DNA of 22,972 nt from a virus, in IMG/VR virus record IMGVR_UViG_3300020166_001433, positions 1 through 22,972 of that record. The stretch is one strand, 5' to 3'. A model generated the notes under the pieces. That model ran no database searches, had not been told where the DNA came from, and worked only from the letters and a program-made list of their open reading frames with translations. Positions within the stretch are counted from its first letter, which is position 1. Every line of letters begins with the position of its first letter. This document shows positions 2,299 through 16,275 of the stretch, piece by piece. The translations under genes were made by a program, and so were the position numbers.

Positions 2299-2649
2299 TT
2301 ATTTTCCTTTGTTTACGAAATTGTAAAATTGTTGCGCTGCTTCAAGAATTTGTTCTGTTCCTGGAACTTCTGGCATTTCTACCTTTGTCACAACTTCATC
2401 GTGCTCTTTTCGAACAGATGTTTCAAACATGCCATATTTTGCATAATAGTCTTGCCACATTTGTGATTGTGCCATTTCTAATACTTGAGTACGAATTTCA
2501 TAACCATTTTTATTAAAAGTTACTTTAGGAAGTGAAGGAGGTGTCATTTTCTGAAATGCTTCTGTAAATGCCTCTGGTTTCATTCCTGTGTTTTTGTATA
2601 AATCGCTGAATTTTTCAGCCATTTCAGTCATTTGTTTAATATCGAACAT
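2299..2649 (-). CDS. phasin-like small protein (tentative)
   Basis: This 116-aa soluble, helix-rich protein has no signal peptide or membrane segment. The C-terminal half, with IRTQVLEMAQSQMWQDYY, VVTKVEMPEVPG and EQILEAAQQFYNFV, gives an impression of phasin-like proteins, which coat polyhydroxyalkanoate granules or act as chaperone-like helical proteins. This is pattern recognition without a decisive motif. AAAGGAGAAC sits at good spacing before the ATG. It lies directly downstream of the tmRNA gene with no intervening promoter or terminator that I can see, so tmRNA and this mRNA may share the promoter at 2954-2984. A strong terminator follows the gene. Confidence 0.45.
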   Translation of the reverse strand: MFDIKQMTEMAEKFSDLYKNTGMKPEAFTEAFQKMTPPSLPKVTFNKNGYEIRTQVLEMAQSQMWQDYYAKYGMFETSVRKEHDEVVTKVEMPEVPGTEQILEAAQQFYNFVNKGK

Positions 2650-2679: not shown

Positions 2680-2945
2680 TAGTGTAACTATTCTGTTGCT
2701 AGGTCAGTTACCAACCCCCACGTACTTAAATTAAGCCGCTAATGCCATTTCTGGCGCTTTATTTGCGTTTGCAATTAAAAAGTTTATTCGCGGTAACGGC
2801 GCTTATATCCCGGTAACTCCATTCATCTATCTTGTCAGTCGATCCTAGTTCAGCCCCATAAGAAACACACTTATCTAAATGTGCTTATGGTGGAGCTGCG
2901 CGGTACTGCCCCGCGGTCCTGTCCAATCGTCAAATCACTTCAACG
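2680..2945 (-). ncRNA. ssrA: circularly permuted two-piece tmRNA (alphaproteobacterial type)
   Basis: On the minus strand the acceptor piece comes first and ends in CGCGCAGCTCCACCA (CCA at 2890-2888). Its T-arm-like hairpin is CGCGG/CCGCG. After an intervening segment (2887-2858) that forms a hairpin (CCATAAG paired with CTTATGG), the coding piece starts at 2857 with GGGGCTGAACTAGGATCGAC, the classic tmRNA 5' end. GGGGCTG pairs with CAGCTCC, giving a seven-pair acceptor stem with the G3-U70 wobble that AlaRS recognises. A tag frame follows at 2772-2731. Gene order acceptor piece, spacer, coding piece is the permuted arrangement known in alphaproteobacteria. The outer ends (about 2945 and 2680) are estimates. 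The long P2 helix between pieces was not resolved by eye. The product would rescue stalled ribosomes with SmpB. Confidence 0.93.
2731..2772 (-). other. tmRNA proteolysis-tag reading frame
   Basis: Reading from a GCA resume codon gives ANANKAPEMALAA followed by TAA. With the alanine charged on tmRNA the tag would be A-ANANKAPEMALAA. The hydrophobic ALAA end is the type of degron recognised by ClpXP, and AN-rich starts are common in ssrA tags. The resume codon is inferred from its resemblance to other tags, since upstream codons in this frame do not define it. Confidence 0.88.
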
Positions 2946-2953
2946 TTACATTC

Positions 2954-2984
2954 TATTTATAACATATTTTGATAGTGTTGTCAA
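2954..2984 (-). promoter_or_regulatory. composite sigma70 and T4-late-type promoter of tmRNA
   Basis: On the minus strand TTGACA (2979-2984) is followed by 17 bases and TATAAATA (2954-2961). The latter serves both as a -10 (TATAAA) and as an exact T4 late promoter box. About 31 bases are identical to the pstS promoter apart from one substitution. The predicted start, near 2947, fits the 5' end of the acceptor piece. Confidence 0.8.
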
Positions 2985-3016
2985 TAGAAAAGGCAGTGTG
3001 TCGATTCACTGCCTTT
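2984..3016 (-). terminator. rho-independent terminator after the Pit-like gene
   Basis: A 10-bp stem, AAAGGCAGTG paired with CACTGCCTTT, has an 8-base loop and is followed on the minus strand by a T-rich stretch. It lies directly after the permease stop codon and abuts the -35 of the tmRNA promoter. Confidence 0.8.
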
Positions 3017-3021
3017 AAATA

Positions 3022-3993
3022 TCAAAGTCCGTTAGGTACAATGATATAATGAATCATTAGCACAAGTGCCACTGAGGCACCTAAACCAACCATCATCTTG
3101 CCAAAGTCCTTAGCAACTAGTGGAAATACTGACTTCGTTTTCTTTTTACCAAAGTATGTTGCCATTGCAAGTTCTCTACCTGCAAGCAAGCCCACGAATA
3201 CCCAAGTTGTTGACATTGGAATATCGTTTAGTTCTTTGAAGAAGTATAAGCACAACCAATAGAACAAATCAATCAGCGTTGCTGACCTCACGTATCTTGT
3301 GTTGTGTTTCTCTAATACAATCTGTTGTATCTTACCGCCACGTTCTCTAAACATAAAGAACAAGCCTACTACAAACACTAAACTTATAAACACCATTAGG
3401 TCAACTGGAATAACTCTTGGTAAGAACACTGCAATGTTGGCAATGTCATGTGACAACCAAGTCCACCACAAGCCGCCTGTTGCTACCCATTGTGCTATTC
3501 GCCAATAGTTTTTGTTGCTTTCGCTAACTGGCTTTGTTTCATCATACCATTTGCCAAAGTATTTGTGTATTGCAAACCATACTACATATGCAAAGCCTGC
3601 CGCTACACCATAGCCCATGATTGATTTCATAAGCATCTTCTCCAACACAAAGGTTGAAGCAAATACTGATAGAACCAAAAATGAAGTTGATACAGGTACA
3701 CCCATTCTAGTTAGCGCAACTAGGATAAGAGGCGCTGCAGCATGATACCACTGCACTTCTTGCCATGGAATCTTATTAAGTCTGCCGTAACTGATGTCTC
3801 CACCATTTACAACCCAGCCATACCATAGTGTTGCTAATAGAACACCTGATGCTGATAACCATAATGTTTTGTAACTAAATCTCTCATTGTTTGATGCCAT
3901 CCATGTACCGAGAGTTTGTACTGAATCGTTTGCTATAACTGCATATGCAGCAAGCAGGAAGCCAATAAGGCTCCATAGAGTGAGTGCGTCCAT
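3022..3993 (-). CDS. Pit-family (PiT/PHO4) inorganic phosphate permease
   Basis: This 323-aa polytopic membrane protein has the duplicated PiT signature. The first copy is ANDSVQTLGT (21-30) with GVPVSTS (98-104). The second is SHDIANIAVF (181-190) with NDIPMSTT (256-263). These correspond to the GANDxANAxGT and PxSTT motifs of PitA and PHO4 carriers, which import phosphate, usually as a metal-phosphate, with H+ or Na+. It is clearly shorter than PitA (about 500 aa), with reduced loops, but both half-repeats are present. AGAGGAGAAA lies upstream of the ATG. It follows pstS in the same direction, separated by a leader nearly identical to that of pstS, so both genes are probably under common phosphate-linked control. 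The family call is firm and the direction of transport is inferred. Confidence 0.87.
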   Translation of the reverse strand: MDALTLWSLIGFLLAAYAVIANDSVQTLGTWMASNNERFSYKTLWLSASGVLLATLWYGWVVNGGDISYGRLNKIPWQEVQWYHAAAPLILVALTRMGVPVSTSFLVLSVFASTFVLEKMLMKSIMGYGVAAGFAYVVWFAIHKYFGKWYDETKPVSESNKNYWRIAQWVATGGLWWTWLSHDIANIAVFLPRVIPVDLMVFISLVFVVGLFFMFRERGGKIQQIVLEKHNTRYVRSATLIDLFYWLCLYFFKELNDIPMSTTWVFVGLLAGRELAMATYFGKKKTKSVFPLVAKDFGKMMVGLGASVALVLMIHYIIVPNGL

Positions 3994-4066
3994 TGTTTTC
4001 TCCTCTGCTTGATGGCTTTACACCATCGCTCACGTTAAAGATAGGCGTGCTTTTATACACGCCTAC
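3994..4066 (-). promoter_or_regulatory. structured 5' leader of the Pit-like gene, copy 1 of a repeated element
   Basis: In RNA sense the leader has hairpin I (TAGGCGTG at 4065-4058 paired with CACGCCTA at 4049-4042), then CTTTAACGTGAGC. Hairpin II follows (GATGG 4027-4023, loop TGTAAAG, CCATC 4015-4011), then AAGCAGAGGAGAAA just before the ATG. The loop UAAAG can pair with the upstream CUUUA (4040-4036), forming a pseudoknot. The same block precedes pstS. Hairpin I may also serve as a weak terminator of pstS. I do not recognise it as a named riboswitch class. Confidence 0.7.
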
Positions 4067-4080
4067 ATTATACATTATTA

Positions 4081-5061
4081 TTACCAGTTGGCGACCATTT
4101 CTTGTGTTTTTGCTAGTTCTGGATCACTCACCAAACCATACTGAGCGAGTGGACCATCTGGGCCAGCAATTTCATCTGACACAAAGAACTGTATATATTC
4201 TTTAAGTCCTGGCACGACAGGAATATGTGCCATTTTCACATAGAACTGTAGTGGTCGGCTGATTGGATATTCACCACTTGCAACTGTTTCTGTGGTTGCT
4301 TCAACGTCATTAATTGTTGCTGCATAAATTGTATCTGTGTTGTTTAGCAAAAAGCTCAAACCAAACACGCCAATCCCATTGGGGTTAGAACTCAAGCTTG
4401 CGAGGGTTTCGGTATAGTCACCATCAATATCAATAGATCTAGAGTCTGTACGAACTGTGTAACACTCTTTCTTTGCTTTTTTCTTGTCACCTAATTGAGC
4501 AAGAAAAACATCGTAATCACCTGCTGTTTTACAGCCAACTTCCATGACCTTCTTTTCAAACACTTCACGTGTTCCGTGCTTTGTGCCTGGAAGAAATACT
4601 AAGATTTCTAAAGCCGGCAATGTAGGATCAATTTCATTCCACATTGTATACGTGCTATTCTTTTGCAGTGCTTTATATAAATGTTCTGGTGTCATATTTT
4701 CAAAACCTGGTGTATCTAACCGAGCGGCAAATACGATACCGTCATAACCAATTCTAACTTCTTTTACTTCACTTTGTAGTGATGTTTCGCATCGCTCCCA
4801 TTCATCTTGTTTCATAACAGAACTTGAGTTTGCGATATCCACAGTATTTGAGCCAACGCCTTCGCACATACGTTTACGTCCTGCTCCTGAGCCACCTGAC
4901 TCAACTACTGGTGTTGGGAATTCAAAATTTTCGCCAAACGCTTCTGCTACAATAGAGGCATATGGTAGAACGGTTGACGATCCTGCTATATGCACGTAAT
5001 CACGTGCCTGTGCCATAGTGGCTGTTGCCCACAAGGCAACTATCATTGTTAATAGTCTCAT
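4081..5061 (-). CDS. pstS: periplasmic phosphate-binding protein PstS
   Basis: This 326-aa protein has a signal peptide (MRLLTMIVALWATATMAQA, cleavage expected near residue 19). It is followed by a periplasmic-binding domain with HIAGSSTVLPY (25-35) and ESGGSGAGRKRMCEG, the phosphate-coordinating SST and SGGSGxG loops, and RIGYDGIVFA. PstS binds phosphate in the periplasm and hands it to the PstCAB ABC transporter. No pstC, pstA or pstB is present here, so it presumably feeds the host transporter, as proposed for the well-known cyanophage pstS genes. AAAGGAGAAAG precedes the ATG at ideal spacing. It has its own composite promoter and a structured leader, and the Pit-like gene follows in the same direction. 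No sequence matching a classical enterobacterial PhoB box was seen. Confidence 0.93.
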   Translation of the reverse strand: MRLLTMIVALWATATMAQARDYVHIAGSSTVLPYASIVAEAFGENFEFPTPVVESGGSGAGRKRMCEGVGSNTVDIANSSSVMKQDEWERCETSLQSEVKEVRIGYDGIVFAARLDTPGFENMTPEHLYKALQKNSTYTMWNEIDPTLPALEILVFLPGTKHGTREVFEKKVMEVGCKTAGDYDVFLAQLGDKKKAKKECYTVRTDSRSIDIDGDYTETLASLSSNPNGIGVFGLSFLLNNTDTIYAATINDVEATTETVASGEYPISRPLQFYVKMAHIPVVPGLKEYIQFFVSDEIAGPDGPLAQYGLVSDPELAKTQEMVANW

Positions 5062-5128
5062 TTCTTTCTCCTTTGCTTGACGGCTTTACACCATCGCTCA
5101 CGTTAAAGATAGGCTCGACATTGCCTAC
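5062..5128 (-). promoter_or_regulatory. structured 5' leader of pstS, copy 2 of the repeated element
   Basis: It is nearly identical to the leader of the Pit-like gene. Hairpin I is GTAGGC paired with GCCTAT around a different, shorter loop. Hairpin II is GATGG, loop TGTAAAG, CCGTC, where the base change relative to copy 1 turns a U-A pair into U-G and so keeps the stem. The invariant CUUUA upstream can pair with UAAAG in the loop. The Shine-Dalgarno AAAGGAGAAA follows immediately. Confidence 0.7.
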
Positions 5129-5132
5129 ATCC

Positions 5133-5163
5133 TATTTATAACATATTTTTATAGTGTTGTCAA
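5133..5163 (-). promoter_or_regulatory. composite sigma70 and T4-late-type promoter of pstS
   Basis: TTGACA (5158-5163), 17 bases, then TATAAATA (5133-5140) on the minus strand. The -35 overlaps the end of the hydrolase gene. It differs from the tmRNA promoter at one position within the spacer. Confidence 0.8.
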
Positions 5164-5750: not shown

Positions 5751-6440
5751 CTAAATTGAATTATGTTTACGGTTCATAAACATTTTTGCTGTTTCAACTG
5801 CGACTGCTGCATCTCTACAATACGCATCTGCACCAATTGCTTTTCCAAATTCTTCATTTAGTGGTGCGCCGCCTACTAGTATTGTATAATCATCACGCAT
5901 ACCTTTTTCAATCATTACATCAATAACAACCTTCATATACGGCATTGTGGTTGTAAGTAATGCACTCATACCTAATATATCTGGATTATGTTCTTCGATT
6001 GCATCAAGATAAGCCTGAACATCGTTATTAATACCAATATCGTGTACATCAAATCCTGCACCTTCCATCATCATACCAACTAGATTTTTACCAATGTCAT
6101 GTATATCACCTTTGACTGTGCCAATTACCATAGTGCCAACTTGTGGTGCACCAGTCTCAGCAAGTAGTGGTTTTAGAATTGACATTCCACCCTTCATAGC
6201 GTTTGCGGCTAATAATACTTCAGGTACAAATAAAATGCCATCTCTAAAGTCGATACCAACAATAGTCATTCCAGCAACCAGTGATTCTGTTAGTACACGA
6301 TATGGTTCCCAACCACGTTCTAAAAGAATATTAGTACCTTCTTCGACTTCCTCTTTGAGACCATCATACAAATCGTCTCCCATTTGAATTACTAATTCTT
6401 CATCATTTAATTCAGAGAGTACAATATTATCATCTTCCAT
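5751..6440 (-). CDS. cobalamin-binding corrinoid protein (MtbC/MttC-like, MetH B12 module)
   Basis: From the ATG at 6440 this is 229 aa. An N-terminal helical cap (residues about 10-90, with PEVLLAANAM at 73-82) precedes a Rossmann-like B12-binding domain. That domain has the diagnostic GDIHDIGKNL (D112-x-H114-x-x-G117, His being the lower cobalt ligand), SALLTTT (159-165) and VGGAPLN (189-195). This is the two-domain layout of methyl-carrying corrinoid proteins of methylamine or methoxy metabolism and of the MetH cobalamin module. Such proteins shuttle methyl groups between a substrate methyltransferase and an acceptor, and no partner methyltransferase is in the window. A GTG at 6452 in frame would add four residues but lacks a Shine-Dalgarno, so the ATG with AGAAG upstream is preferred. 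A TATAAATA box lies 32 bases upstream. Confidence 0.88.
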   Translation of the reverse strand: MEDDNIVLSELNDEELVIQMGDDLYDGLKEEVEEGTNILLERGWEPYRVLTESLVAGMTIVGIDFRDGILFVPEVLLAANAMKGGMSILKPLLAETGAPQVGTMVIGTVKGDIHDIGKNLVGMMMEGAGFDVHDIGINNDVQAYLDAIEEHNPDILGMSALLTTTMPYMKVVIDVMIEKGMRDDYTILVGGAPLNEEFGKAIGADAYCRDAAVAVETAKMFMNRKHNSI

Positions 6441-6471
6441 TATTCTTCTCACTTATATAAGTTAACATATC

Positions 6472-6533: not shown

Positions 6534-7307
6534 CTAAAATGCAAAACTTAGTGTAACTGATGGTGTTACTGTTTCATCATCCACATTATAGTTAACATCT
6601 GTTTCTACAGTTGCACCAGAAAAATCAAATTCATGTCCTACGCCGATGTTTTCTAGTAAATCATCTTCGTCACCATTGATATATGTTGTTAGACCGTATG
6701 TACTAACCGTAGAATCTAATTCGTATGCTAATGTATCTGTTTCATATGATACAGTTGTACCAAGTGCAACACCTGTAACTTCTACCGTATCAACCCGTGC
6801 ACCCCAGGTGTATTTTTCAGATGTGCGATTATAATCCATAGATGCAGTTACATCTACCAATGCCAAATCAACATTATATGCAAGTTGTACATTTGACACT
6901 TCAGTAACATCAGTTGTGATATCAGTGAAACCAACTGCTACCGCGGCTGGACCGTATGATAATGTCAATGATTCATCAATAGTTGGTTCTGCGATTGATG
7001 AAAAATCGGATGTTGCTTCTACAAAAACACCATCCTGGTCACCAAATGTTACGGTTGTATCTGCAACTTCTGTGCCAACATGCCATTTATCTAGTTTGAT
7101 TGTGTCACCATCAACTGATTCAAACTCTAGTCCAACGTTTGCCACTCCTTCGCCTGCATCAACATCAATACCGATTGTGGTTGTCGCTTCATACTTATCG
7201 GTTGCTTCATTTTCAGCAACTTTCATTTTAGCAGAAACACCAATGTCTGCTGCAAATGAAGTCGTAGCCAATACCATAGCGGCTACTGTTGTTAGTAATA
7301 GTTTCAT
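6534..7307 (-). CDS. porin-like outer-membrane beta-barrel protein
   Basis: This 257-aa protein has a clear signal peptide (MKLLLTTVAAMVLATTSFAA, cleavage near residue 19-20). The mature part alternates short amphipathic strands and acidic turns, is rich in Thr, Val, Asp and Glu, and has no cysteine. It ends in VTLSFAF, an aromatic C-terminal strand with final Phe as required by the BAM assembly machinery. This fits a trimeric-porin-like or small OMP barrel of about 12-14 strands. Possible roles are solute uptake through the outer membrane or alteration of the cell surface against competing phages. It is framed by its own promoter and attenuator-like hairpin upstream and a strong terminator downstream, so it is a single-gene transcription unit. 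The exact family is not identified. Confidence 0.75.
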   Translation of the reverse strand: MKLLLTTVAAMVLATTSFAADIGVSAKMKVAENEATDKYEATTTIGIDVDAGEGVANVGLEFESVDGDTIKLDKWHVGTEVADTTVTFGDQDGVFVEATSDFSSIAEPTIDESLTLSYGPAAVAVGFTDITTDVTEVSNVQLAYNVDLALVDVTASMDYNRTSEKYTWGARVDTVEVTGVALGTTVSYETDTLAYELDSTVSTYGLTTYINGDEDDLLENIGVGHEFDFSGATVETDVNYNVDDETVTPSVTLSFAF

Positions 7308-7327
7308 TATTATATTTCCTTTTAAAC

Positions 7328-7357
7328 AAAAAAATATGAGCAGGTTACCTGCTCATA
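7328..7357 (-). terminator. terminator-like hairpin inside the porin gene's leader (possible attenuator)
   Basis: An 11-bp perfect inverted repeat (TATGAGCAGGT paired with ACCTGCTCATA around one central base) is followed on the minus strand by seven T residues. It stands between the porin promoter and the porin ATG, only about 15 bases into the predicted transcript. It may stop transcription arriving from 7454-7705, act as an attenuator, or both. Confidence 0.75.
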
Positions 7358-7373
7358 CTACTCTACTTATACT

Positions 7374-7402
7374 AATATAATACATTTTTGCTTTATTATC
7401 AA
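7374..7402 (-). promoter_or_regulatory. sigma70-type promoter of the porin-like gene
   Basis: TTGATA (7397-7402), 17 bases, TATATT (7374-7379) on the minus strand, downstream of the 83-aa gene and upstream of the porin hairpin. Confidence 0.6.
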
Positions 7403-7453
7403 GTAGGTACAAAGTTAATATTAGTATATGTGTCATTTATATCACACTATTAA

Positions 7454-8779: not shown

Positions 8780-9692
8780 CTATACTTTTCTTTAGATTAT
8801 AAAGGTCTCTAATACCAGTTTCGGTATCTATTAAAGGTTGCCAGCCTAATAGTTTTTTTGCCTTAGATATATCGGCAAGAGTATCGGTTGCATATCCTTT
8901 AGGCTTATCTTGGTATTCTATTTCCAAATCTGGAAAAAACTCACGTAATATATTTACTATCTGATTTACCGAATAACTTTTTCCTGTTCCCACATTAAAG
9001 ACTTCACTTTTTACTTTGGATTCCATACTCGCAATACATGCACTTGCTACATCGCTTACATGAATATAATCTCGTTTAAATTCACCATCGCCATGAACGG
9101 TTAATGGATGGCTATCATTTGCTAAACGATAAAACTTACTAATCATTAATCCGTTATCGTCGTCCGATGGTTGTTCTGTTCCATAGGTTGTAAAGAAACG
9201 TAATACATTATAGTTCAAGTCAAATACATTTTTATACTGTTTGCATAATTGCTCACCGAATAATTTAGTCATTGCATAATAATTCAATGGATCTGGTTTA
9301 TGAAATGGTTTATGTGGCGGAGGATTATTACCATATATACTAGATGAACTAGCATAAACAAATTTCCGTATACCAACCGCATGTGCGGCAGTTAATACAT
9401 TTCGTGTGCCAGTTACATTATTATCAAAATAAGTATCAGGATCAATAAAACTTTGTGGTATTCTTGCTTTTGCTGCAAGATGAATAATATAATGTTGACC
9501 AACTGCTGCCATAACACATTTAGCAGCACTTTGTATGTCACCTTTAATATAACGTACATATTTAAAATCTTGTGGCTTTTCAGATTTATCTAACACCGTT
9601 ACTTCATACCCTTTTGAAAGTAGTTGTCTGACAACTTCTCTGCCTATGAAGCCTGATCCGCCAGTGACAAGAACTTTACCTTTTACTAACAT
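8769..9692 (-). CDS. NAD-dependent sugar-nucleotide epimerase/dehydratase (extended SDR, GalE-like)
   Basis: This 307-aa protein has an N-terminal GGSGFIG (11-17) Rossmann dinucleotide motif, a GDI at 51-53 and HLAAKARIP (71-79). It also has the catalytic SSSS region (115-118) with YxxxK (Tyr139, Lys143), and an RDYIHVSDVA segment typical of UDP-glucose or UDP-GlcNAc 4-epimerases. It acts on nucleotide sugars in the cytoplasm, supplying precursors for surface polysaccharide. A GT-A glycosyltransferase-like gene at 12550-13374 may use such products. The precise substrate cannot be assigned. AAGAAAG lies before the ATG and a promoter lies upstream. It leads the unit of epimerase, CDF exporter and two small proteins. 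Confidence 0.88.
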   Translation of the reverse strand: MLVKGKVLVTGGSGFIGREVVRQLLSKGYEVTVLDKSEKPQDFKYVRYIKGDIQSAAKCVMAAVGQHYIIHLAAKARIPQSFIDPDTYFDNNVTGTRNVLTAAHAVGIRKFVYASSSSIYGNNPPPHKPFHKPDPLNYYAMTKLFGEQLCKQYKNVFDLNYNVLRFFTTYGTEQPSDDDNGLMISKFYRLANDSHPLTVHGDGEFKRDYIHVSDVASACIASMESKVKSEVFNVGTGKSYSVNQIVNILREFFPDLEIEYQDKPKGYATDTLADISKAKKLLGWQPLIDTETGIRDLYNLKKSIDEA

Positions 9693-9982: not shown

Positions 9983-10177
9983 ATGACACTAAACCTATTT
10001 AGTGCCCTAGCAAATCTTTTTGGAGGATTTCCTAATAGGGCAACAAAACGCTCAGACTTAATGACTTGGGCAAAAACAGAGTATGCACGTGATTGGGAAT
10101 TTGCTTACCAATACATGCTTGATAATCGTGGCAAAGCGCCATCACATAGATACACACAAGGAATAACACATGATTAA
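9983..10177 (+). CDS. small unknown protein, first gene of the DUF1127 operon
   Basis: This 64-aa protein starts with an amphipathic hydrophobic segment (MTLNLFSALANLFGGFP). A basic/aromatic part follows, containing AKTEYARDWEFAYQYMLDN and a C-terminal SHRYTQG. TTTGGAGAAA provides a good Shine-Dalgarno. Its stop overlaps the next start by 8 bases (ATGATTAA), the same coupling seen at the end of the CDF gene. No domain is recognised. Its context beside a DUF1127 gene suggests a host-derived or host-mimicking regulatory protein. Confidence 0.75.
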   Translation: MTLNLFSALANLFGGFPNRATKRSDLMTWAKTEYARDWEFAYQYMLDNRGKAPSHRYTQGITHD

Positions 10178-10406
10178 TAAACTAGTAGTAGCATACAAAA
10201 ATTTTAGAACCGAAATGGATTATAGAAAGAAAGTTCGTACAACAATCAAAGAACTGTCTGCACTTTCAAACTATGAACTAAATGATATCGGAATTTCACG
10301 TGGTGAAATATATAATATTGCAATCACATCATATAATAAGCCAGAACGTCTAGTAGTTGAAGATGTTGAAATAACAGTAAATGAAAATCTAAGAGGGGCA
10401 GTATAA
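10170..10406 (+). CDS. DUF1127 (YjiS-like) small protein
   Basis: This 78-aa protein has the DUF1127 core at residues about 19-50 (RKKVRTTIKELSALSNYELN then DIGISRGEI). It matches the family pattern R-x-x-R-x-x-x-x-E-L-x-x-L-x-x-x-x-L-x-D-I-G-(I/L)-x-R-x-x-I. The family is abundant in alphaproteobacteria. Characterised members, including Rhodobacter CcaF1 and Agrobacterium proteins, are small basic proteins linked to RNA turnover, stress, and phosphate or carbon regulation. A C-terminal extension of about 25 residues is not part of the core. It is translationally coupled to both neighbours. In a phage it could redirect host RNA metabolism; that role is inferred. Confidence 0.88.
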   Translation: MINKLVVAYKNFRTEMDYRKKVRTTIKELSALSNYELNDIGISRGEIYNIAITSYNKPERLVVEDVEITVNENLRGAV

Positions 10407-10579
10407 TGACTACATTAGTAATGAACTACACGGTTAATCCTTTTTGGACTGCACTTAAATCTTTTGGTCGCGGAGTATGGGCTTTTGGTGAATCAGCAGG
10501 TAGAGCAAGAGCAGCCGCTGAACTACATCGTCAAGGCTACACCGAAGCTGCAAAAAACCTAATGTTGGAGAACAAATAA
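10406..10579 (+). CDS. small basic protein, 57 aa, paralogue of the next gene
   Basis: From ATG at 10406 (TAATG overlap with the DUF1127 stop) to TAA at 10577-10579. The protein has an aromatic N-terminus (MTTLVMNYTVNPFWTALKSF) and an Arg/Ala helix, RARAAAELHRQGYTEAAKNL. The helix matches the pattern A-x-E-L-x-x-x-G-x-x-x-E-A of the next protein and resembles short helices of DUF1127-type proteins. Upstream AGAGGGGC lies about 7 bases before the ATG. Function unknown. Confidence 0.75.
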   Translation: MTTLVMNYTVNPFWTALKSFGRGVWAFGESAGRARAAAELHRQGYTEAAKNLMLENK

Positions 10580-14145: not shown

Positions 14146-14153
14146 TATTTATC
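14146..14153 (-). promoter_or_regulatory. T4-late-type promoter of the P-loop ATPase gene
   Basis: GATAAATA on the minus strand overlapping the stop codon of the 708-aa gene, 34 bases before the next ATG, with no -35. Confidence 0.6.
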
Positions 14154-16275
14154 TAGGTCCTAGAATTGATTGAGATTTAATGGATTCCCATGTTTTATTA
14201 ATATTTTCGATTTTAGGCACGATTCTATCAATAACTCTTTGTTGTGGTGCCTTAACTTCATTTATATAGTATCTACGAATTTGTTCTTCTTTAGAGTTAT
14301 CTAAATCGCCACCTGGTGATTGATATACAAATTTATCTCTTACTTTATACAAGGCTCTTAGTGTCTTCTTATGTGATAGTAGTTCTTCTTCTAGAATTAT
14401 CACTTGTCTTCTTTGACCTTCTTGGAAATATGTCTTTGTTGATCCTATATAATTTCTTATATCAGAAAGTATTGTTCGTATTAATTTCTGTTGTGCCTGT
14501 ACTTGAACTGCAATTTGTGGTCGCCATTCTGATTTTTCAACTTGTGCACGAACTGGTAATGTTGCTAATTTTCTATTTTTATTATCGTAAATAGGCTCGT
14601 TTGCAGATGTATTGATTATACTTGCGTCACTCGTATTTGATGATAATTCAGGACTTAGTGCATCACTACGGGTTAAACTATCTGCTATCGGTTTTACAGA
14701 ATTACCGGCTGTTGTCAGTGAAGCCAAATCTGATACACTTCCCACTGAGTTACCTAAATTTCCTATCTGACTCGTTAAATCAGAAAGATCACTTGGAACA
14801 AGATTAGGTATAGACTGTAATCCACCAGAAATAATTCCATCTAAGTTTGATATGCTAGGAATTGAATCTATCTGTGGCAATCCTAGTTGTGATGGTTGTC
14901 CTAGTCCCAATGTTGAGGATGTATTTTCTATATTATCACTCAATGATGGAGCAGGGTCTAAATCATGTAAATATCCATCAATAGGCTCATATAACTTTGC
15001 GGCTTCACTAAATGGAGTTTGCGGTACACCTGGTAATCCACTTGCTATCGATTTAGCATCACCCATAATTGCGTCTACTTCGCCAACGAATGCTCTTGGA
15101 TCTGGTGCAGTGGGAATATTAAATTCTGGTAATCCAGTAGGAAGCGGAGCATTAAGTAATCCCGCTGCACTTTTTAATGCTGGTGAACCAGTATTCATTA
15201 GTACTGATAATTTGCAAGGATCTAGCATTGCTGCTGCCATTGCTATTGATGCAAGTTTGTCAGAAATTTGAACTGCCATATCTGCAATTTTTGAAATCTC
15301 TCCTAGTATTTGATTAGTAACACTAGAAACTGCATTTAATGCACTAGCGGCAATATCACCTAAATTACCCAGCATGCCTTTAATGTCAGGTAAAAATCCT
15401 ATAACATTTGATAATGCTTCATTAACTTTAGATGTTATTCCATTTATTAGTGAACTAATGTTATCTGATATATTTCCTGTTAATCCTGAAATTAAACCAG
15501 AAATATCACTAGTTAGAGTATTAAACATATTAATAACACCTACTTCATTTAAAATATTAAGCAGTTGATCTTTTGCTGTACCTAGGATATCAAATGCACT
15601 ATCAAAGCCACCAGACATTATGCCCATTAATTCATTAAACAAACTACAACTATTATCTTGCTCTCCAAAACTTTTATTGAGACCTGATAACATATCTGCA
15701 TCTTGTAATGTTTGCGGCAAATCAGATATTTGACTAGAAGTATGTGTATTTAGACTAGCAAACATACTTAATGCATTATTTCCTAGAGAACTTGCAGCAA
15801 GTATTCTATTAAAATCTAAACCGGTATTAGAAAGAACACCTGCAATAATCGTACTTTTTGCAAGTTCTGTGCCACCTAAGGTAGGATTATTCAATAGTGA
15901 AAATGAATCATTTGCGGCATTTAATGAATTAAAGCCGGGACTTGAATTAAATTCAGTAAAATCAGCAGTTCCATTTGATGCTATTTGCGCGTATGGATTA
16001 GTAAAATTATTCTCTTTAAGTTCATTTGAAATTATTGAAAGTGCTTGTTTTCTATTGAATTGCTCTTCTGCTGCATTTAATTCTGCCAGTTTACTGGGTG
16101 ATAAATTAATATTATTAGTTTCACTGTAATATGATGCTGGAGTGTTTACTGTTTCTCCTAAACTATTTAAAATAGTATCAGATGCTCCAGGAACATTTGA
16201 TCCTGTTAGACTTCCGCCACCTCTTCTTAAAAATTCTTGATATAATCTTTCAAATTCTGCTTCGCTCAATGCCAT
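14149..16275 (-). CDS. large phage structural protein, probably tail or baseplate associated
   Basis: This 708-aa protein has a Ser/Asn/Gly-rich N-terminal third. A central stretch (about residues 230-380) of amphipathic, Leu/Ile/Gly-rich helices follows, with LTGNISDNISSLINGITSKV and similar repeats. Next is a proline-rich linker (about 380-470), and the last 130 residues form a charged coiled-coil-like domain. The central part looks like tape-measure or hub-associated proteins, but the length is modest for a myovirus tape measure. It follows the PAAR gene by 5 bases, and the phage late block continues after it. I cannot name the T4 equivalent. Confidence 0.7.
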   Translation of the reverse strand: MALSEAEFERLYQEFLRRGGGSLTGSNVPGASDTILNSLGETVNTPASYYSETNNINLSPSKLAELNAAEEQFNRKQALSIISNELKENNFTNPYAQIASNGTADFTEFNSSPGFNSLNAANDSFSLLNNPTLGGTELAKSTIIAGVLSNTGLDFNRILAASSLGNNALSMFASLNTHTSSQISDLPQTLQDADMLSGLNKSFGEQDNSCSLFNELMGIMSGGFDSAFDILGTAKDQLLNILNEVGVINMFNTLTSDISGLISGLTGNISDNISSLINGITSKVNEALSNVIGFLPDIKGMLGNLGDIAASALNAVSSVTNQILGEISKIADMAVQISDKLASIAMAAAMLDPCKLSVLMNTGSPALKSAAGLLNAPLPTGLPEFNIPTAPDPRAFVGEVDAIMGDAKSIASGLPGVPQTPFSEAAKLYEPIDGYLHDLDPAPSLSDNIENTSSTLGLGQPSQLGLPQIDSIPSISNLDGIISGGLQSIPNLVPSDLSDLTSQIGNLGNSVGSVSDLASLTTAGNSVKPIADSLTRSDALSPELSSNTSDASIINTSANEPIYDNKNRKLATLPVRAQVEKSEWRPQIAVQVQAQQKLIRTILSDIRNYIGSTKTYFQEGQRRQVIILEEELLSHKKTLRALYKVRDKFVYQSPGGDLDNSKEEQIRRYYINEVKAPQQRVIDRIVPKIENINKTWESIKSQSILGPR

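Follow-up and report, generated by a model that had tools for sequence, protein, structure and literature searches.

tmRNA releases stuck ribosomes and marks unfinished proteins with a tag. Two-piece forms of it are already known from phages, namely Melnitz and Mosig, and have been proposed to serve recycling or the maintenance of host machinery (PMC9004378). Huge phages carrying both tmRNA and SmpB are also known (PMC7162821), and mycobacteriophage DS6A has a tag-less tmRNA that acts as an inhibitor of tmRNA in E. coli (PMC11915505). For the role of tmRNA in lytic phages, the data presented here offer a case open to test: the gene occurs widely among marine phages, which seem to maintain a bacterial quality-control system in a version of their own. 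The locus under study lies in a marine phage DNA stretch of 22,972 nucleotides, positions 1 to 22,972 of IMG/VR record IMGVR_UViG_3300020166_001433, hereafter called the window. Loci of its relatives are designated by L and a number.

Anatomy and structural conservation of the phage ssrA gene

The minus strand from 2995 to 2681 is a complete, circularly permuted ssrA, which matches the full covariance model RF01849 (cmscan; 119.7 bits, E 1.7e-32) and, at 2949-2731, also RF04321 (109.2 bits), well above the respective gathering cut-offs of 50 and 47. ARAGORN likewise finds a permuted tmRNA with the tag ANANKAPEMALAA*. The gene had been recognized as a permuted two-piece tmRNA in a first-pass annotation, made from the letters alone, that proposed the search with RF01849; the three matches bear this out and add the strand, which had not been given. 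The anatomical details of that annotation are equally accurate. The seven pairs of the acceptor stem, formed by GGGGCUG (2857-2851) with CAGCUCC (2898-2892), include G3 at 2855 and U70 at 2894 and are accompanied by discriminator A at 2891 and an encoded CCA (2890-2888), all at the positions claimed, and the ends predicted for the two pieces, 2888 and 2857, are correct by sequence anatomy. The intervening hairpin is present as the fold of the 30-nt spacer at 2887-2858 (-8.0 kcal/mol, z -3.2), and so is the tag frame ending in ALAA, with the A-A degron end and stop expected of a permuted tmRNA. Along the transcript, a terminator-like hairpin, the promoter, the 3' acceptor piece, the spacer, the 5' acceptor strand, the pseudoknot region and the tag frame follow one another (table 1). 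The terminator-like hairpin, whose U run lies mostly within the stem, is not listed by a consensus terminator scan.

Table 1. Coordinates of the ssrA locus, its neighbours and the spacer genes of relatives
Feature	Location	Strand	Basis and remarks
Permuted ssrA (tmRNA) gene, RF01849 bounds	2681..2995	-	cmscan, ARAGORN
3' (acceptor) piece: P2 strand, T arm 2915-2899, acceptor 2898-2892, A73, CCA 2890-2888	2888..2949	-	Rfam match, covariation; 2949 not an established mature 5' end
Intervening spacer with hairpin, predicted to be removed on maturation	2858..2887	-	Fold, position in Rfam alignment
5' (mRNA-like) piece: acceptor 5' strand GGGGCUG 2857-2851, P2, pseudoknot region, tag frame	2731..2857	-	Rfam match; mature 3' end further downstream
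Tag reading frame ANANKAPEMALAA with stop (TAA 2733-2731)	2731..2772	-	ARAGORN; tag kept in phages
GCCA-GAAA-UGGC GNRA hairpin over tag codons 6-10	2744..2755	-	51/61 distinct phage tag sequences; codon 6/7 third bases invariant in 85/85
Double promoter TTGACA-N17-TATAAATA (sigma70 -35 and T4-late-type -10)	2954..2984	-	Pattern scan; kept upstream of phage ssrA
Terminator-like hairpin between permease gene and ssrA	2989..3016	-	10-pair stem, -14.7 kcal/mol, z -6.2
Phasin-like small protein gene, directly downstream of ssrA	2299..2649	-	ORF; ssrA neighbour in viral relatives; name from sequence character
Phosphate-permease-like gene, directly upstream; cassette gene, outside ssrA	3022..3993	-	ORF; adjoins ssrA in several relatives; name from sequence character
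Second double-promoter copy, before PstS-like gene (4081-5061)	5133..5163	-	38-nt repeat, 95%
62-aa spacer gene	L438 1501-1686		AAGGA ribosome site
26 further loci with 62-aa spacer gene	L439-L451, L460, L472, L485, L488, L489, L492, L493, L496, L497, L499, L508, L509, L514

The structure of this RNA shows evidence of selection and is conserved far beyond chance. In an alignment of 36 phage relatives, 20 pairs in four helices show 99.6% standard pairing, compared with 82.3% in shuffles, which ignore relatedness, and at most 46.4% for slid structures, which allow for it. Two-sided (compensatory) changes occur in 11 pairs spread over all four helices; those in the P2 and acceptor helices provide covariation support for pairing between the two pieces, and G3-U70 stays G-U in 36/36 relatives. 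The claim of conserved structure rests on covariation because folding of the whole transcript is not decisive by itself (z -1.7).

Promoter, cassette and spacer genes

The double promoter upstream of the gene combines a sigma70-like element with the box TATAAATA, which is the T4 late consensus (PMC5587285); the copy at 2961-2954 qualifies as a T4-type late promoter box. Read as a sigma70 promoter, the same stretch is TTGACA-17-TATAAA, which goes unlisted in a strict scan demanding a final T in the -10 box. The double pattern occurs twice in the window (0.02 expected). Among 83 distinct upstream regions of phage ssrA it is found exactly in 57, with up to one mismatch in 68 and with up to two in 76 (0.55 in shuffles), the promoter spacer being variable in sequence and 17 nt long in 61 of 63 regions. 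None of 70 host ssrA upstream regions contains it within two mismatches; host genes mostly have a TATAT-type box and a short leader hairpin. The combined early/late promoter proposed in the first-pass annotation is thus real as sequence and conserved in relatives, its function being predicted; if it works as predicted, ssrA would be synthesized throughout infection. A 155-kb relative has fewer copies of TATAAATA than its shuffles (18 vs 37); 11 of the 18 precede an ORF by no more than 150 nt, and the double form is present once only, before ssrA. A gp55-like late sigma (phrog_234) is found in 6/40 records of relatives, the window itself being a fragment, and no gp55 match is seen in the 155-kb genome, the closest long relative and perhaps a fragment too.

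The second promoter copy belongs to a pair of 38-nt direct repeats (2947-2984 and 5126-5163) which correspond to the ssrA promoter and flank the PstS-like and permease genes. The 155-kb relative shows an empty site (L423, ~16825), with one promoter copy at the exact junction and neither gene. An intermediate form with the permease only is found in L009-L011, where the junction falls in a second repeat, a 56-nt leader. In the window, the permease and PstS-like genes each have such a leader in front of them (3991-4046 and 5059-5114, respectively; 93% alike); both leaders fold into a hairpin close to the ribosome site and match no Rfam family. With copies of the leader and of the ssrA promoter at their borders, the phosphate genes look like a recombination cassette. 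The permease-like protein has no Pfam match, and the phasin-like protein has none in Pfam or PHROGs. (Elsewhere in the window, a gene at 5751-6452 resembles corrinoid proteins, with two B12-binding domains [Pfam E 1.3e-25 and 3.2e-15], lies among host-like metabolic genes and is preceded by a TATAAATA box at 6479-6472. At 9983-10579 the otherwise minus-strand window is interrupted by a short run of plus-strand genes for small proteins, two of which resemble DUF1127 in sequence character.)

The spacer of phage ssrA is longer (25-247 nt, median 65) than that of the hosts measured (10-45 nt, median 22), and in some relatives it seems to house protein genes. Frames of at least 25 codons are about as common in shuffled spacers (27 of 68) as in the real ones (32), whereas frames with a ribosome site number 9, as against 2.1 in shuffles. 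One family of 62 aa (MEIIWHILLTVC...) lies wholly inside the spacer of an intact permuted ssrA in 27/80 loci (found through the protein), and the Rfam models match across the insert. Its median pN/pS is 0.27 over 148 pairs, all below 1. The family also occurs elsewhere, within tRNA arrays or immediately before the ssrA promoter. The spacer of L266 (247 nt) holds a 73-aa frame matching PGDYG (PF14083) at 29.2 bits (cut-off 27), and the 30-nt spacer of the window is too short for a gene. If these readings are right, a single transcript would be both tmRNA precursor and mRNA. One tRNA within such a tmRNA spacer is on record (PMC11915505). In the literature searched we found no earlier report of protein genes inside a tmRNA spacer, which would make them, if confirmed, a gene arrangement new to that literature. 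Of note, L091 has a decayed second ssrA copy (9180-9600) with the same promoter, no T arm, a further frame inside and a tRNA-like gene (9254-9336) in the spacer; the spacer of its intact ssrA also contains a T-arm-like stretch.

Function, tag and lineage

These features are best accommodated by a working, phage-owned two-piece tmRNA that cooperates with host SmpB and is made both early and late, a reading we consider probable. Anatomy and conservation are observed here, and the transcription phase, processing, charging, tagging and proteolysis are extrapolated from known tmRNA biology. Early in infection, host RNA polymerase would transcribe ssrA from the sigma70-type part of the promoter, and later a phage-modified polymerase would use the TATAAATA part. 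Excision of the 30-nt spacer by tRNA-processing enzymes of the host (RNase P and 3' trimming) would leave two base-paired pieces, and host AlaRS would charge the RNA via G3-U70. With host SmpB and EF-Tu, the phage tmRNA could then release ribosomes that have stalled on damaged mRNA of host or phage, and add ANANKAPEMALAA; since this tag retains the ClpXP-type A-L-A-A end, we propose that proteolysis of the tagged fragments makes their amino acids available again. As first noted, the window offers no SmpB partner: none of its ORFs reads as SmpB, and PF01668 has no match in 48 viral records of relatives. Dependence on the host protein is most likely, judging from this absence in records that are partial.

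The tag pattern A-N-x-N-x-A-P-E-M-A-[LMI]-A-A is present in at least 120 viral contigs of IMG/VR, retrieved with the DNA pattern A-N-x-N-x-A-P-E-M-A-x-A, which presets some residues and leaves the last A and the stop free. Genuine host DNA among 84,980 species genomes contains none. Two of these genomes do match; since genes of phages (nuclease, cell-wall hydrolase, NrdB or bS21-like protein, named from sequence character) are present at each of the two loci, we read them as phage contigs binned into MAGs and rejected them as host evidence. (In one, a MAG labelled Neomarinimicrobiota, the ssrA-bearing phage contig L169 has a gene at 7187-7438 with the sequence character of ribosomal protein bS21.) The other MAG belongs to an order labelled Rickettsiales (0.9-2.0 Mb, ~30% GC) that, from genome size, GC and uniform tag, is presumably the SAR11 order. 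Hosts of the SAR11 order have the tag ANDNEMALAA almost without exception, and other Alphaproteobacteria combine ANDN with varied ends. The comparison with host tags proposed at the outset shows that ANANKAPEMALAA differs from each of ~70 alphaproteobacterial ones.

Part of the phage tag appears to be fixed by an RNA hairpin, and the tag would thus be an RNA element too. In 85 distinct phage sequences, A1, N2, N4, A6, P7, M9, A10, A12 and A13 are always kept (some being preset by the pattern) and synonymous bases vary at codons 2, 12 and 13, yet codon 6 is GCG and codon 7 CCA in 85/85, with third bases that were free in the search. The stop follows codon 13 in 122/122 loci, chosen by the tag pattern. 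The fixed third bases are apparently due to a GNRA hairpin, GCCA-[loop]-UGGC, seen in 51/61 distinct tag sequences, with a loop of GAAA, GAGA or GCAA. Where codon 6 encodes Ser (TCG) or Gln (CAG) instead, as in two phages, the pairing G is retained. No hairpin of this type was found in SAR11 tags, and other GNRA hairpins occur in 2/49 further host tags. Aligning host ANDN-EMALAA with phage ANxN-xAP-EMALAA places the three extra codons in the left arm of the hairpin, and these codons may have arisen by insertion.

The altered tag, and not simply extra capacity for ribosome rescue, could be the purpose of the gene, if the phage RNA competes with host tmRNA and re-routes tagged proteins to faster, slower or adaptor-independent proteolysis. 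Its presence in so many viral contigs and in genuine host DNA of 0/84,980 species would fit, as would the shorter tag of SAR11-order hosts. Nevertheless, the A-[LMI]-A-A end is retained, part of the tag is set by the hairpin and not by the peptide, divergent phages (Melnitz included) have other tags, and an SspB adaptor was sought and found in 0/40 viral records, so that we hold this explanation to be rather unlikely. A still poorer fit is a decoy role, in which the RNA would capture SmpB or ribosomes and thereby shut down trans-translation in the host: an inhibitor of this kind is on record for DS6A (PMC11915505), but the DS6A form has no reading frame, whereas conservation here extends to the tag frame, the stop, the resume region, G3-U70 and the CCA, which makes a decoy very improbable.

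The phage tmRNA belongs to a lineage of some standing. A tree built without the tag columns places the window with 82 of the 85 other phage rows, across a 100/84 branch from 69 host rows and 3 phage rows; the tree samples the hosts, draws most of its phage rows from searches with the tag, has rough support values and leaves 69 of 150 inner branches unresolved, and one of the three host-side phage rows (L377) is doubtful in origin. A topology constrained to a single phage clade is not rejected (p-AU 0.45), and one that joins the window to SAR11 alone is disfavoured (p-AU 0.057). The sampled phage ssrA genes thus seem for the most part to form one lineage apart from the 69 alphaproteobacterial host sequences. 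The idea that the phage carries its own complete permuted ssrA stands; that of a recent host copy does not, the window gene failing to group inside host sequences and belonging instead to an established phage lineage. By routes independent of the tag, permuted tmRNA was found in 16/22 contigs chosen by the permease and 9/10 chosen by the phasin-like protein, large contigs being preferred and several already known to carry it.

That the gene is a passive scrap of host DNA (a prophage attachment-site remnant, a recent capture or the chimeric assembly that the first-pass annotation had allowed for) is already contradicted and scarcely credible, even if ssrA is a common integration site and the authors of the Melnitz study raised such an origin (PMC9004378), since the same locus and flanks recur in independent contigs of several metagenomes (L009, L010, L011, L090, L091), the lineage is separate, the promoter is of phage type in place of a host leader, and covariation is strong.

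Searches of 50,697 phage records with the whole window and with 600-base pieces gave no match, nor did the 708-aa protein (14149-16275), the permease or the phasin-like protein, and an exonuclease matches only distant jumbo and T4-like phages at below 60% identity, too remote to fix taxonomy or host. The nearest cellular relatives of the permease, 54-61% identical and found in 5/289 alphaproteobacterial genomes, are too far to name a host.

Taken together, the evidence leans modestly towards a broader picture, in which marine phages keep a long-standing ssrA lineage as an infection module, with an early and late promoter, a hairpin-coding tag unused by hosts and, in relatives, an excised spacer nesting protein genes. 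The distinct tag could serve to tell phage from host tagging within one cell by mass spectrometry, and the Melnitz-OM43 culture is an existing system.

Comparison with known systems

The window gene shares with alphaproteobacterial two-piece ssrA (alpha_tmRNA, RF01849; tmRNA_permuted, RF04321) the gene order, acceptor stem with G3-U70, encoded CCA, spacer, T arm, P2 and A-A tag end. It differs in having TTGACA-N17-TATAAATA in place of the 5' leader hairpin and host promoter, and a 13-residue tag unseen in hosts. The ssrA of Pelagibacterales (SAR11 order) is permuted too, and its tag has the same ANDN start and EMALAA end, but this tag is of 10 residues without xAP, the resume codon is GCC, the double promoter is absent and the genes form a separate clade. 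DS6A also encodes a tmRNA-related RNA, which lacks the tag frame, whereas the window gene is complete.

The isolate Melnitz, an OM43 phage (PMC9004378; MZ577097), likewise has a permuted ssrA, with exactly TTGACA-N17-TATAAATA directly upstream, of which the Melnitz paper mentions an early promoter only (PMC9004378). Melnitz differs in its tag, ANDNYVPVDYALAA, and in having ssrA followed by a glutamine riboswitch and a late-transcription coactivator gene; no Rfam riboswitch match lies near the window ssrA. (In L466, as in Melnitz, ssrA is directly followed by a glutamine riboswitch aptamer [RF01739, 60.1 bits], at 1521-1574.) The kind of system is already known, and the variant is richer than first described.
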